From Gammaproteobacteria bacterium (GTDB taxonomy: Bacteria > Pseudomonadota > Gammaproteobacteria > Pseudomonadales > Azotimanducaceae): 44,498 nt of DNA. This document shows, one piece after another, positions 39,357 through 44,377 of the stretch. The first letter of the stretch is position 1; each line of letters starts with the position of its first letter. The notes below the pieces were generated by a model that saw nothing but the letters and a program-made list of their open reading frames with translations, was not told where the DNA came from and made no database searches. The DNA is taken from the NCBI GenBank assembly GCA_003247835.1, contig QJYB01000121.1, positions 1-44,498 of the forward strand. The letters are read 5' to 3'. A program made the translations under genes and the position numbers.

Positions 39357-40583
39357 TCAGTCCAGGGCGCCGAACACCTCGTCGGTGTGTTCGCCGAGCT
39401 TCGGCGCCCGCCGCGAGATGGCCCAGGGCGTGCGCGTGAAGCGGTACGGGGCACCCGGATATCGGAAGGAGCGGTCGAGATCGTCGTGCCGGACCTCGGT
39501 GGGATAGCCGCGGGCGACAAAATGCGGGTCTTCGAATACCTCTTCCGGACTGTAGATCACACCTACCGCGAGCCCCGCGTCCTGACAGCCGATGAAGAAT
39601 TCGTAGGCGCTGATCCGGCTGGCGATGAGCTGCAGCCCTTCGCGGCCGCTCGAGAAGATGGCGGTGATGGTTTCATCCGACCCGATCAGCGACAGATCGA
39701 ACGGCCCCTCCCAGTTGGCACCCATTTCCAGGAACACGGCTTCGGGGAACTCCTCTTTCAGTCCGAGCCTTTCCAGCCAGGCCAGCAGCCGGCCGAACTC
39801 CACGGGAAAACGTGGTGGCACGCCCGTGTTCACCCAGCGGCCGTCCGCGCACCGCATCTGCGTTTCGCCGGTGGATCTGGTGGCGGCATGGCGACCGGTC
39901 TGACGCTGAACCGTGCCGCCATTGACCAGCCACGTGTAGCTCGCCGCCTCGGTCGTCACGTTCAGCGCCGCAGTGATGGAGACATCCACGAACTGTCCCG
40001 GGCCGCCGGCCCCACGATGCAGGAGCGCGGTCAGGGCGGACATCACCGCAAAGTGGCTCCCGGTGTGGAATGCCTGTTTTCCCCAGCCCCTTACGGGCGG
40101 CAGGCTGTGATCGTCGTAACCGCAGCTCCACGGTGGGCCGCCGGCCGCCATCAGCGTCAGATCCGTCGCTGGCAGCTGGCTCGCCGCTTCGTGCCGACCG
40201 TAAGGGGTCACCGCCACGTGCACCAGACCGGGGTTGGTCAGGGACAGCACGTCGTAGTCCATCCCCAGGTCCATGAGGCGACCCGGCTGCTCCGCTTCGA
40301 GCAGCACATCGGCGGTGTCGATGAGCTTCAGCAGCCGGTCCCGCTGCCGCGGGTCATCCAGATCGCAGACCACACCCCGTTTGCTGGTGTGGTAGTGCCA
40401 GAAGTGAAGACTGCGCTCCGGATCCCTCACATCATCCAGAAAGGGTGGAAAGAGACGGCTCGCGTCACCGACCGGGGGCTCCACCAGGATCACGTCGGCA
40501 CCCATGTCGGCGAGCAGCTTGCCGGCATAGGCGATCGGTTCACCGGCGAGCTCCACCACCCGAATTTCCTCCAGCACGCTCAC
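39357..40583 (-). CDS. Class III CoA-transferase (CaiB/BaiF family), second gene of pair
   Basis: This 408-residue family III CoA-transferase moves CoA between acyl groups through aspartyl-CoA and aspartyl-acyl intermediates. It starts VSVLEEIRVVELAGEPIAYA, then LLADMGADVILVEPP, the usual N-terminal CoA-binding pattern. A WHYHTSKRGVVCDLDDPRQR line follows, and the C-terminal half contains DPHFVARGYPTEVRHDDLDR and LGEHTDEVFGALD. The substrate is unknown. The start is GTG at 40583 with GGAGGAGGG upstream. It overlaps the stop of the partner gene by 4 bases (GTGA). Paired, coupled CaiB/BaiF genes often form a heteromeric enzyme. Confidence 0.9.
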   Translation of the reverse strand: MSVLEEIRVVELAGEPIAYAGKLLADMGADVILVEPPVGDASRLFPPFLDDVRDPERSLHFWHYHTSKRGVVCDLDDPRQRDRLLKLIDTADVLLEAEQPGRLMDLGMDYDVLSLTNPGLVHVAVTPYGRHEAASQLPATDLTLMAAGGPPWSCGYDDHSLPPVRGWGKQAFHTGSHFAVMSALTALLHRGAGGPGQFVDVSITAALNVTTEAASYTWLVNGGTVQRQTGRHAATRSTGETQMRCADGRWVNTGVPPRFPVEFGRLLAWLERLGLKEEFPEAVFLEMGANWEGPFDLSLIGSDETITAIFSSGREGLQLIASRISAYEFFIGCQDAGLAVGVIYSPEEVFEDPHFVARGYPTEVRHDDLDRSFRYPGAPYRFTRTPWAISRRAPKLGEHTDEVFGALD

Positions 40584-41806
40584 AGCACACCCTCCTCCGC
40601 CAGCTGGCGGACTTCGTCGGCACTGTAGCCGAGCAGGCGGGTCAGAACGGCTGCGTTGTGCTCGCCGAGGCACGGTGCGCCGTGGACCGCCTGCCAGTCG
40701 GTCTGCGAGAAGTGCACCGGTTGCCCGTCCACCCTTACTTCGCCCATCGCGGTATGCGTCACGGAGGGCCACAGACCAAAGCGGCCGGTCGTTTCATCCC
40801 GCTCGATACGTTCTGCGGGCTTCTGCACTGCCGCCGCCGGAATCGGCAGCGCACGCAGGGTCTGCTCGAGCGCGAACTTGTCATGGGTGCGCGTCCAGGT
40901 GGCGAGCGCCGAATCCAACGCGTCCTGCTGTGACCAGCGGGTGTCTGCCGCCTGATAGGCGCTGGTCCAGTCTTCACCGATGGCGCCGGCGAGTGCTCGC
41001 CAGTCAGCGTCGTCACGACAGCTGATGGCGATCCAGTCATCGTCACCGGCGCAGGGATAGATGCCGTGAGGGGCCATCGGCACGTACTGACTGCGGTTGG
41101 AATTCACCGGCGCATCGCGCATGGCGCGACCGTTGACGCTCCAGTCCAGGAGCGCCGGGCCGTTCAGCGACACGCCGGCCTCGGTGCAGGCCAGGTCCAC
41201 CCACTGCCCCTCACCTGTCCGCTGACGGTGCAGCAGGGCCATGAGAATGGCGATAGCCATGTAGTAGCCGCCGGTGTGGTCCATGTAGGAGTAACCCCAT
41301 CCAGCAGGTGGCTGGTCCGGGAGAGCGGAGCTGAAGGTCAGTCCGGAAATGGCCTGTACGATCGGGCCCCAGGTCTTGTACCGTCGGTAAGGGCCGACGT
41401 GACCGAATCCGCAGTTCGACACGTAGACGATGTCCGGCCGGATGGCCTTGAGTTGCTCGTAGCCGAAGCCCCACTTCTCGAGCACGCCGGCGGCGAAGTT
41501 CTCCGTCACGGCGTCCGAGATCCGGATCAGCTCGGTGAGAATCTCCTTCCCTTTGTCCGTGCGCAGGTTGAGGGTGATGCCGAGCTTGTCCACGTTGTGG
41601 TTGTTGAACCCTCCACCCGATTCCAGACCAGACTGGCCGGGTTTGTACGGGGGCGCACCGCGCAGGATGTCCCAGCGGCCCTGGCGCACCGGGTCCTCGA
41701 TGCGGATGACCTCCGCGCCGAACATGGCGAGCCATTTGGTCGCCCCCGCTCCGGCCAGCTGACCGGTGAAATCGCAGATACGGAATCCTTCCAGGGCGCC
41801 TGGCAC
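40580..41806 (-). CDS. Class III CoA-transferase (CaiB/BaiF family), first gene of pair
   Basis: This 408-residue CaiB/BaiF-type CoA-transferase begins with GTG at 41806 (MPGALEGFRICDFTGQLAGA) after GGGGAGAAGCG. Family lines are GATKWLAMFGAEVIRIEDP, HNVDKLGITLNLRTDKGKEI, GVLEKWGFGYEQLKAIRPDI, VYVSNCGFGHVGPYRRYKTW and YMDHTGGYYMAIAILMALLH. It ends APCLGEHNAAVLTRLLGYSA followed by EEGVL. It is translationally coupled to the downstream paralogue. The 72 bases before it contain a hairpin that separates it from the ArsM-like gene. The acyl substrate is unknown. Confidence 0.9.
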   Translation of the reverse strand: MPGALEGFRICDFTGQLAGAGATKWLAMFGAEVIRIEDPVRQGRWDILRGAPPYKPGQSGLESGGGFNNHNVDKLGITLNLRTDKGKEILTELIRISDAVTENFAAGVLEKWGFGYEQLKAIRPDIVYVSNCGFGHVGPYRRYKTWGPIVQAISGLTFSSALPDQPPAGWGYSYMDHTGGYYMAIAILMALLHRQRTGEGQWVDLACTEAGVSLNGPALLDWSVNGRAMRDAPVNSNRSQYVPMAPHGIYPCAGDDDWIAISCRDDADWRALAGAIGEDWTSAYQAADTRWSQQDALDSALATWTRTHDKFALEQTLRALPIPAAAVQKPAERIERDETTGRFGLWPSVTHTAMGEVRVDGQPVHFSQTDWQAVHGAPCLGEHNAAVLTRLLGYSADEVRQLAEEGVL

Positions 41807-41853
41807 CGCTTCTCCCCTTCGCTGTCGAGGGGAGAAGCATGCCACCGATCGAT

Positions 41854-41878: not shown

Positions 41879-42685
41879 TCACCCGGGTTTCCTGGCCAGA
41901 AAGGCATGACCGTACACCGCGAACGCCCGTGCGTTGGCCTCCCCTGTGGTGCCGGAGAAGGTGTCCACCGCGCCGCCGATGACCACGTCCACGAAGCCGG
42001 AGGCTTCCAGCAGCGCCTTCCAGCCTGCACACGGCAGGCCACCGGCGATTCAGGCGGTCCAAAGGTCGATGTTGTCGACCGCGGACTCCGGGACGTCCTT
42101 GCCATTCGCGATGTCCGCAAACTGCAGCCAGCCGCCCGGTTTCAGCACCCGGAACGCTTCCGTGAGCACCGCGGATTTGTCCGCGCAGAGGTTGAACACG
42201 CCGTTGGAAATCATCACGTCGGCCCAGGCGTCGGGGACGGGCAACGCTTCCAGCAACCCCTCGCGGTAGCTCAGATGGTTGATGCCCAGACGCGCCCGCT
42301 CGCGGCCTGCCTTGTCGAGCATCTCCGGCGTCATGTCCACACCGATGACCTGGCCTGCTTCGCCCACGAGGTGCGCCGCCACGATGCTGTCGAACCCGCC
42401 ACCGGATCCCGCATCCACCACCCGCTCACCGGATTCGATAGTGCGCAGCGAGAAGGGATTCGCCACCCCGGCGAAACACTCCACGGCCGAGTCCGGCAGA
42501 CGGCTGAGCAGATCCGCCGGATAGCCGAGCCGCTCGGCCAGCAGCCGACCGGTCTGGAAGTGGAACTCGCCCTGTGGATGGACAGCCACTTCCCGGTACT
42601 TCTCCTGCACCTGGGCACGGAGCGCCTCGGCATTCACCCGTGGGCCGGAGTTCGCAGTTGCAGTTTCTCGTCTAGCTTCATTCAC
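41879..42685 (-). CDS. ArsM-like SAM methyltransferase, candidate selenoprotein with in-frame TGA at 42050-42052
   Basis: Read through one in-frame TGA (residue 212), this is a 268-residue methyltransferase. The N-terminal part has ECFAGVANPF with Cys70, then RVVDAGSGGGFDSIVAAHLV (89-108) and QVIGVDMTPEMLDKAGRERA, very close to ArsM/AS3MT. Before the TGA is NIDLWTA and after it IAGGLPCAGWKALLEASGFV, in frame to GHAFLARKPG and a normal stop at 41879-41881. In human AS3MT the catalytic, arsenite-binding Cys156 lies in LWGECLGGAL, which aligns W-T-A-U-I-A-G-G. The TGA therefore replaces the key Cys. The start is GTG 42685 with GGAGGAG. A candidate SECIS follows the TGA. It may methylate arsenic or another metalloid. 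The alternative is a pseudogene. Confidence 0.84.
42014..42049 (-). promoter_or_regulatory. Candidate bacterial SECIS element of the ArsM-like gene
   Basis: On the minus strand, 16 nt after the TGA, a stem GCCTGC / GCAGGC (42039-42034 with 42028-42023) closes loop CGTGT, whose second base is G. The stem can be prolonged by two wobble pairs and, beyond a small internal loop, by CGCC/GGCG (42047-42044 with 42017-42014). The spacing of 16 nt and the G in the first two loop bases agree with the bacterial SECIS model, at its lower spacing limit. Confidence 0.68.
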
Positions 42686-42799: not shown

Positions 42800-44377
42800 A
42801 TGCGCTACGCCTTCAGACAATTCGAGTTCGATCCCGGGCGGCTGGAGCTCAGGGAGGATGGGGAAATCGTCCACGCCGAGCCCCAGATTCTCGCGCTGCT
42901 CGGCGTGCTGCTCGGCGATGCCGGAGAAACCGTGACCAAGGAGACGATCAACGAGCGGGTCTGGTCCGGCCGTGTGGTCTCCGATGCGGCACTGAGCGGC
43001 CGGATCAAGGCGCTCCGGGCATTGCTGCACGACGACGGCAAGCGCCAGGAGGTGATCCGGACCGTTCATCGGCGCGGCTTCCGGTTCGTCGCCGATGTCA
43101 GCTGCGAATCCCGCGAGCCCACTACTGCCGGGATGTCCAACACCCCCGGCGGCGCGACCGCCACCACGAGCGTGACCCACCCGGACCGTCCGACCGTGGC
43201 CGTTCTTCCGTTCTCCAACCTGTCAACGGACGCCGATCAGAACTACTTCTCCGAAGGCATCAGCACGGACCTCATCACCCACCTGTCGCGGCACCGCTGG
43301 CTCAACGTCATCGCCCGCAACACGGCGTTCAGTTACCGCCAGAGCGACCTGAGTGCGATGGCGCTCGGCCAGGCGCTGGGCGCGCGGTACGTCGTGGAAG
43401 GCAGCGTCCAGAAGAGCGGCAATCGCGTGCGCGTCCGTGTCAACCTGACCGACGCGCAGTCGGGTTACCAGATGTGGTCAGAGCGCTACGACCGCGAGCT
43501 CGCGGACATCTTCGCCGTCCAGGACGAGATCACCGAGACCATCGCCGCGCGGCTCGAGCCCGAGATCGGCTTCGCGGAACGCAACCGGGTGATGGCGTCG
43601 CGCCCGGAAAATCTTCAGGCCTGGGACTGCTTCCACCTGGGCATCCATCACTTCTACCAGTTCACGGCCGAGGCGAACCGCGAGGCGCAGGTGCTGCTGA
43701 AACGCAGCCAGCAACTGGACCAGCGCTTCGGCGAGGCCTGGGCCTGGTGGGCATACGCCGTAGTGCTCGGCATGGTCTACTGGGACACGCCGGCGAGCCA
43801 GGCGCTGCTCGACGAAGCTCTGGCAGCCTGCGAGACCGCACTGAAGCTCGATCCGCACAATGCCACCTTCTACGCATTGCGGGCGCGGACGCTGCTGGCC
43901 CGCCGTGAGTATGACCGCGCCATTGTCGAGAACGAGAAGGCCATCGAGTTGAATCCCACCTTCGCGGCTGCCTACTGTGGTCTCGGCGATTCGCTGGCTT
44001 ACGAAGGTCGCTACGACGAGGCGATACCGTACTTCGAGCGCTCCATCGCGCTCAGTCCGAACGACCCGCAGCTCTGGGCCTTCTACTCCTACGGTGCGCT
44101 GGCACTGCTGTTCATGAAGGATTTCGAGCGTGCCGAGGCCTGGACGGAACGGGCACTCGCCACGCCGAACTGCCAGTTCTGGGCCCTGGCCCATCGCGCC
44201 GTGGCGTTGGCCTACCTCGATCGGCTCTCCGAAGCCCGGCTATGCATCGCTCAGATTCGAAAGGAAATTCCAGAATTTTCAATTAGATATACGAGAGACC
44301 GCATGTTCTATCTGAAACGCCCCGATCAGATCGCGCTCTACGAGAAAGGGCTCGCCCTGGCCGGGGTCGAACCATGA
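42800..44377 (+). CDS. Winged-helix transcriptional regulator with TolB-like and TPR domains
   Basis: This 525-residue protein has an OmpR/PhoB-type winged helix at about 1-97: FEFDPGRLELREDGEIVHAE, ETINERVWSGRVVSDAALSG, RTVHRRGFRFVADV. A linker follows, then a TolB N-terminal-like segment (about 130-240: RPTVAVLPFSNLSTDADQNY, FSEGISTDLITHLSRHRWLN, GARYVVEGSVQKSGNRVRVR). Tetratricopeptide repeats fill about 270-500 (ALKLDPHNATFYALRARTLL, AIELNPTFAAAYCGLGDSLA). No transmembrane segment is evident, unlike CadC. It diverges from the ArsM-like gene across 114 bases and overlaps the next gene by 4 bases (ATGA). It may regulate either neighbour; the signal is unknown. Confidence 0.88.
   Translation: MRYAFRQFEFDPGRLELREDGEIVHAEPQILALLGVLLGDAGETVTKETINERVWSGRVVSDAALSGRIKALRALLHDDGKRQEVIRTVHRRGFRFVADVSCESREPTTAGMSNTPGGATATTSVTHPDRPTVAVLPFSNLSTDADQNYFSEGISTDLITHLSRHRWLNVIARNTAFSYRQSDLSAMALGQALGARYVVEGSVQKSGNRVRVRVNLTDAQSGYQMWSERYDRELADIFAVQDEITETIAARLEPEIGFAERNRVMASRPENLQAWDCFHLGIHHFYQFTAEANREAQVLLKRSQQLDQRFGEAWAWWAYAVVLGMVYWDTPASQALLDEALAACETALKLDPHNATFYALRARTLLARREYDRAIVENEKAIELNPTFAAAYCGLGDSLAYEGRYDEAIPYFERSIALSPNDPQLWAFYSYGALALLFMKDFERAEAWTERALATPNCQFWALAHRAVALAYLDRLSEARLCIAQIRKEIPEFSIRYTRDRMFYLKRPDQIALYEKGLALAGVEP

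Follow-up and report, generated by a model that had tools for sequence, protein, structure and literature searches.

We report a gene that belongs to a stand-alone, single-Sec subfamily of ArsM-like methyltransferases and that public gene calls cut at an in-frame TGA. It lies on the minus strand of a gammaproteobacterial contig, within the 44,498-nucleotide stretch of DNA analyzed here in full (the window), at positions 41879..42685, and encodes 268 residues from a GTG start taken at 42685 to a stop TGA at 41879-41881. Its one internal TGA, codon 212 at 42050..42052 (-), very likely specifies selenocysteine (Sec212), a reading that we draw from comparative sequence evidence. Sec at an ArsM-like UxxG site is itself already published; what is new is the stand-alone single-Sec subfamily.

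Re-reading of the minus-strand frame from 42685 to 41879 gives VNEARR...DLWTA-TGA-IAGGLPC...RKPG-stop and bears out the original prediction, made from the letters of the window alone, that the frame continues for 56 codons past the TGA to a clean stop with no other lesion. Open stretches of 56 codons are frequent by chance at the 64.5% GC of the window (396 of its 1685 stop-to-stop stretches reach this length); what lifts this frame beyond chance is that homologues keep the TGA, the frame and the tail. Among 84 loci, comprising the window's own, three others from related genomes and the best 80 of 558 matches, the codon at column 212 is TGA in 31, TGC in 30, TGT in 22 and TAG in one. An alignment of P0001 with 120 other proteins, the best-scoring of 8000, has Cys at the column in 105 of the 120 and Trp in two, which answers in the affirmative the earlier question of whether relatives carry Cys here; the remaining 13 stop short of the column. 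These 13 end directly before column 212 and comprise 11 close-relative clusters, P0023 and P0002, the last being the window's own gene as cut at the TGA in public gene calls. A search of 195 related genomes at E 1e-30 found a match in four. Three of these, the window's own genome among them, belong to the window's family and have TGA; the fourth comes from another family and has Cys.

Could the TGA be a recent pseudogene lesion or a sequencing error? The window's MAG is a draft in 129 contigs with a completeness of 88.8%, in which errors of this kind might be suspected; however, the same TGA, followed by a conserved tail, recurs in L018 and L019, from two further genomes of the family, and at 28 more loci, and these independent copies refute the idea, to which we give practically no credence. 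A true stop deserves more thought. Under that explanation the product would be a 211-residue methyltransferase with a tail that is untranslated in this organism, in keeping with the gene calls that end P0002, the 11 close relatives and P0023 exactly there. The part of the tail 3' of the TGA and of the hairpin described below, 41882..42021 (-), is nevertheless conserved at the protein level. Post-TGA tails are homologous among the TGA loci (the sequence of L065 runs out before its stop), and in 21 recoded genes the differences at codon positions 1/2/3 in codons 226-266 (0.32/0.26/0.61) resemble those in codons 20-211, 5' of the TGA (0.28/0.23/0.59), from which we conclude that the tail past the hairpin is under protein selection. 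Orthologues that end naturally at the TGA had been named as grounds for abandoning the Sec reading; the orthologues that were fetched do not end there.

The most telling evidence comes from a change of codon. Among 112 genomes from the family of a Blastococcus (Geodermatophilaceae), 10 match at E 1e-60. In six of the 10, the frame contains a single TAG, located at column 212; three others carry a more distantly related gene whose codon there is TGC (L174-L176), yet a CTA tRNA-Sec is present; and one locus falls short of column 212. The anticodon of tRNA-Sec is CTA in all six TAG genomes, where ARAGORN labels the tRNA Pyl, and TCA in all 25 TGA genomes with an ARAGORN-confirmed tRNA-Sec (23 of 28 checked, plus G018 and G021). 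Codon 212 and the tRNA-Sec anticodon thus change in step, which neither a true stop nor a Trp reading explains; in particular, a true stop does not account for the finding of TAG at the column in genomes with a UAG-reading tRNA-Sec. A TGA-to-TAG switch that is matched by the anticodon is near-proof of decoding without experiment, and it supplies a natural pair of constructs. One genome, G302, holds both a TCA and a CTA tRNA-Sec (L177:1169-1263 and L187:1497-1592) and has TAG as its methyltransferase codon; either dual decoding or a contaminant contig might explain this double complement. A UAG-reading tRNA-Sec of Geodermatophilaceae, with the same anticodon CUA as found here, has already been published;PMC5330540 the passages concerned name the selenoproteins FDH, UGSC and AhpC and leave this methyltransferase unnamed.

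Reading of the TGA as tryptophan would account for the W that P0044 and P0108, known as proteins only, carry at column 212. Each of the two nests singly beside a TAG or TGA row in our tree, however, and TGG is one base away from either codon; most relatives carry Cys, the hairpin and Sec machinery accompany the TGA, and the TAG forms match the CTA tRNA-Sec. We consider this explanation scarcely conceivable. The tree itself, built by a quick method with a midpoint root and SH-aLRT support only, has 108 rows and places all 37 Sec rows within one 61-row group (support 98) that also holds 21 Cys rows, the two Trp rows and P0023; the remaining 47 rows have Cys at the Cys174 site (numbered as in CmArsM, below) and include no Sec.

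Does the RNA carry a signal for Sec insertion? A SECIS-like hairpin, GGCCUGC-CGUGU-GCAGGCU, lies at 42022..42040 (-), assigned from pairing and covariation, with 7 bp and the 5-nt loop CGUGU. It begins 9 nt past the TGA, and its loop begins 16 nt past the TGA with G as the second loop base, just as had been described from the letters alone. The covariation check suggested at that time found compensatory changes: across 30 sequences, of which 28 are distinct, the paired share of cells is 95.4% (87.3% in shuffles), and changes on both sides affect 14 cells (4.0 in shuffles), while slid registers of the hairpin pair at 20-49%. In two of the five measures of covariation the sequences do not stand clearly above shuffles, double-change pairs being reached by 19 of 500 and further pair types by 73 of 500. 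Against synonymous recoding, 230 of 252 stem pairs form in 36 of the 37 recoded genes where 174 are expected; for the 7 nearest Cys genes out of 54, the figures are 26 of 49 formed and 23 expected. Folding energy is unremarkable (z -0.99 against dinucleotide shuffles), and against synonymous recoding the mean z of -0.72 in recoded genes and of -0.59 in Cys genes is not significant. The window's stem register is not kept in full everywhere: the TAG forms, like some of the TGA forms, lose one or two of its pairs, and L066 keeps three of seven. No Rfam family matched the window at gathering scores, which we do not hold against a SECIS since these elements are short and varied, and ARAGORN found no tRNA in the window. 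The hairpin loop encodes Cys219, present in 18 of the 31 TGA forms, and this residue may be kept for the sake of the RNA.

The Sec machinery of the organism itself must be pieced together from its relatives. In the window's own MAG (88.8% complete), selA, selB and selC were not found, as a true stop would have it; the tRNA-Sec candidates there, at 31-37 bits, proved to be Leu, Gly, Ser, Trp and Cys tRNAs. The same MAG does encode a selD with an in-frame TGA (CGUAAK), the Sec motif of SelD being UxxK,PMC13188914 and this selD needs Sec. SelA, SelB and tRNA-Sec are present in all three same-genus genomes, clustered on one contig, and one missing contig is probably the best account of their absence from the window's MAG. 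Lack of Sec machinery, named in advance as a refutation, holds for selA, selB and selC in this MAG but not for its TGA-containing selD or for the three same-genus genomes. With its conserved tail, its matched TAG forms, its own selD and the complete same-genus machinery all against it, the true stop is in our judgment very unlikely. More widely, in a set of 24 genomes, of which 23 belong to the window's family (its own included) and one, G178, to another, SelB exceeds its cut-off in 20, tRNA-Sec is present in 21 and SelA in 20. SelB also exceeds the cut-off in 23 of 28 other TGA genomes, three of the 28 having neither SelB nor a confirmed tRNA-Sec. By codon class, in 50 of the best 80 loci, SelB is found in 23 of 28 TGA, 1 of 1 TAG and 14 of 21 Cys genomes, so that its presence fails as a discriminator between TGA and Cys carriers. 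Among the nearest Cys carriers, L046, L053 and L056 lack SelB (0 of 3), though the L046 genome has tRNA-Sec; a fourth, L067, has both.

What, then, does the enzyme methylate? Counted along the alignment with CmArsM (Cyanidioschyzon ArsM), the TGA column corresponds to Cys224, presumably the equivalent of human Cys206; the original prediction, which equated it with AS3MT Cys156, was wrong on this point, and the equivalent of Cys156 is Gly162 here. We take Cys72, Cys174 and Cys224 of CmArsM to be its As(III)-binding cysteines. By alignment, the window protein has Val74 (42464..42466, minus strand) at the Cys72 site, Gly162 (42200..42202, minus strand) at the Cys174 site and the TGA at codon 212, so the three-Cys As(III) signature is incomplete. 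Val and Gly occupy the first two sites in 121 of 121 aligned proteins (the best 120 of 8000 plus P0001), and in the 31 TGA loci the Cys174 site is always Gly while the Cys72 site is Val in 24, Thr in four, Met in two and Ile in one, never Cys. With only the codon-212 position kept among the three, an arsenite substrate becomes doubtful. The Sec part of the originally proposed Sec-containing arsenic or metalloid methyltransferase has thus stood, and its arsenite part, with one of three arsenic-binding Cys sites left, is in doubt. Cys167 (42185..42187, minus strand), present in 27 of the 31 TGA forms and missing in four, is a candidate resolving thiol for Sec212; the idea that it is exclusive to Sec forms was rejected, as 66 Cys relatives also have it.

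In its predicted fold, the window protein is a SAM-methyltransferase closest to ArsM: arsenic methyltransferases are the closest solved structures, whether compared by sequence or by fold, and Foldseek ranked no other fold above ArsM, although families missing from that comparison prove nothing. The canonical ArsM/AS3MT enzymes (4fr0, 6cx6, 5evj, 8xt7) share with the window protein this modeled fold and the third Cys position; in contrast, Sec replaces the third Cys and Val and Gly replace the others in the window protein, and the two lie on opposite sides of the branch with support 98 in the quick tree. Prior literature on Sec in this fold is richer than the original prediction, which knew of no characterized example, had allowed for, as Sec-containing ArsM-like proteins at UxxG are already in print.PMC13188914,PMC2398784 An arsM selenoprotein family was named in 2008,PMC2398784 and a 2026 review tabulates a Sec arsenite methyltransferase with the motif UxxG as 'experimentally verified', citing Fomenko et al. 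2007, together with three larger families of Sec-ArsM fusions, for which it cites Haft and Tolstoy 2025.PMC13188914 The tabulated enzyme (NF008823/PRK11873) is ArsM-like with Sec followed by xxG, as is the window protein, which scores 195 bits against the NF008823 arsM model, under the cut-off of 263; the other two arsenic-binding Cys are absent on the window side, a contrast read from the window protein only. The best NCBIfam matches of the window protein, over approximately residues 19-237, are NF041537 ArsM_AhpD_UU (231 bits, cut-off 510), NF041536 ArsM_DUF2284_UU (205, cut-off 575) and NF047649 MTase_UXPK_star (209, cut-off 460). The review lists the UxxG motif for these families too; they are longer, with two or three Sec,PMC13188914 whereas the window protein is a methyltransferase only, with one Sec and no further domain.

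These likenesses make up the case for a Sec-containing arsenite or methylarsenite methyltransferase, in which Sec212 would bind trivalent arsenic as Cys224 does in ArsM, Cys167 would perhaps be a second ligand and the function would be arsenic detoxification: the closest solved sequences and folds are ArsM/AS3MT, the best NCBIfam matches are Sec families of which two are named arsenite methyltransferase, and the review lists an enzyme of that name with the same UxxG. Against it stand the Val and Gly at the Cys72 and Cys174 sites throughout the aligned proteins, Gly162 in every TGA locus, and the surroundings of the Sec genes, where the commonest neighbor families include rhodanese, DsrE, MddA and a selenium-related LysR and not arsenic genes; one ArsP-type permease lies near L062. 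We regard the arsenite enzyme as possible, but on balance improbable.

The surroundings are most suggestive in planctomycetes, whose members are approximately 40% identical to the window protein. At two of five planctomycete TGA loci (L070 and L077), an MddA domain follows the Sec methyltransferase in frame (NF045656, 350.6 and 346.4 bits; cut-off 270), and at the other three the fusion is absent. At four of the five, the gene directly upstream, in the same orientation, encodes a 'selenium metabolism-associated' LysR (258.8-270.1 bits against a cut-off of 250); the LysR at L065, at 190.6 bits, falls under that cut-off. Of the best 46 protein hits to the planctomycete fusion (120 listed of 959), 45 start at a Met 13 residues past the TGA site, which suggests that many Sec-methyltransferase/MddA fusions are split in gene calls, the 45 proteins being known without their upstream DNA. 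Four other proteins (P0168, P0169, P0173 and P0201) join MddA to a different C-terminal SAM methyltransferase that by eye is not ArsM-like. The S-methyltransferases MddA, MddH, MddM1 and MddM2 carry out the same reaction as we propose here;PMC12904073 in the passages on them, the enzymes acting on sulfide and methanethiol are of UbiE/UbiG type or membrane proteins, and the main text of that paper contains neither 'selenocysteine' nor 'ArsM'. Our literature search, with most subscription papers outside its reach, found no paper on a Sec methyltransferase-MddA fusion.

Neighboring genes elsewhere in the family point in a similar direction. A simple ORF picker, which takes at most two ORFs per side, leaves out those of more than 700 residues and makes some false N-terminal extensions, gave 118 neighbor ORFs for 36 Sec loci, among them 14 rhodanese, two SBP56 (one in L168) and two DsrE; SBP56 is a methanethiol oxidase family.PMC5739008 The rhodanese count includes several ArsR-rhodanese fusions, and ArsR regulators flank canonical arsM too. 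At 47 canonical ArsM loci, ArsR is the commonest neighbor (12) and rhodanese lies outside the 25 commonest families (130 of 167 listed ORFs), so that its count there is only bounded, the last of those families having two members. Within the window's own family, L019 has a rhodanese ORF upstream of the Sec gene, and in L018 (genome G021) a DsrE gene has its stop at 1461-1463, directly before the Sec frame that opens at about 1468. A regulator divergent to this DsrE-Sec gene pair resembles one in the window, a CadC-like winged-helix/TPR regulator at 42800..44377 (+), divergent to the Sec gene, which is itself followed by two CaiB-type CoA-transferase genes (39357-41845, minus strand). These three window neighbors, when tested, bore no sulfur or selenium signature. 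Two other arrangements were also seen: in Gemmatimonadota/Chloroflexota, the Sec gene is separated from an ArsR-rhodanese regulator by an ORF that resembles a second methyltransferase (L055:2649-3488 and L063:1684-2685), and downstream of the Sec methyltransferase of L062 lie a metal-sensing repressor (Trns_repr_metal) and a permease of ArsP type (L062:4917-6180).

Because of these links of its relatives to MddA, rhodanese, DsrE, SBP56 and the selenium-metabolism LysR, we favor sulfide or selenide methylation over arsenite methylation. Our confidence in this choice is modest, as the strongest links are found in distant members and the three tested neighbors in the window carry no such signature. 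That the window protein is an ArsM relative with Sec212 that methylates reduced sulfur or selenium species, and not arsenite, is a predicted activity that we hold to be an even call. In such an enzyme, SelB and tRNA-Sec would place Sec at the hairpin-marked codon, and the Sec212 selenolate could then hold a sulfur or selenium atom beside SAM, for example as Se-S received from a rhodanese- or DsrE-type carrier. The methyl group of SAM would pass to the atom so held, Cys167 would join Sec212 in a Se-S bond and so set methanethiol or methylselenol free, and a reductant would reopen that bond. In the planctomycete fusions, the MddA domain may take over this product and release it as dimethylsulfide or dimethylselenide.

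These ideas lead us to a broader and distinctly tentative proposal, that of a selenium-gated methylation valve: a Sec-dependent enzyme that would be made only when selenium is plentiful and would convert HS- and HSe- to methanethiol and methylselenol. In some planctomycetes, a single chain that includes MddA, encoded behind the gene of a selenium-responsive LysR, might then form a self-contained two-step dimethylsulfide/dimethylselenide route, cut at the Sec codon in gene calls. The family as a whole is under-counted, because gene callers truncate its members at the TGA and appear to split the MddA fusions. Should sulfide or selenide prove to be the substrate, volatile sulfur and selenium production would gain a selenium-dependent entry through this family, and that substrate would explain why a selenolate has been kept after its arsenic-binding partners were lost.
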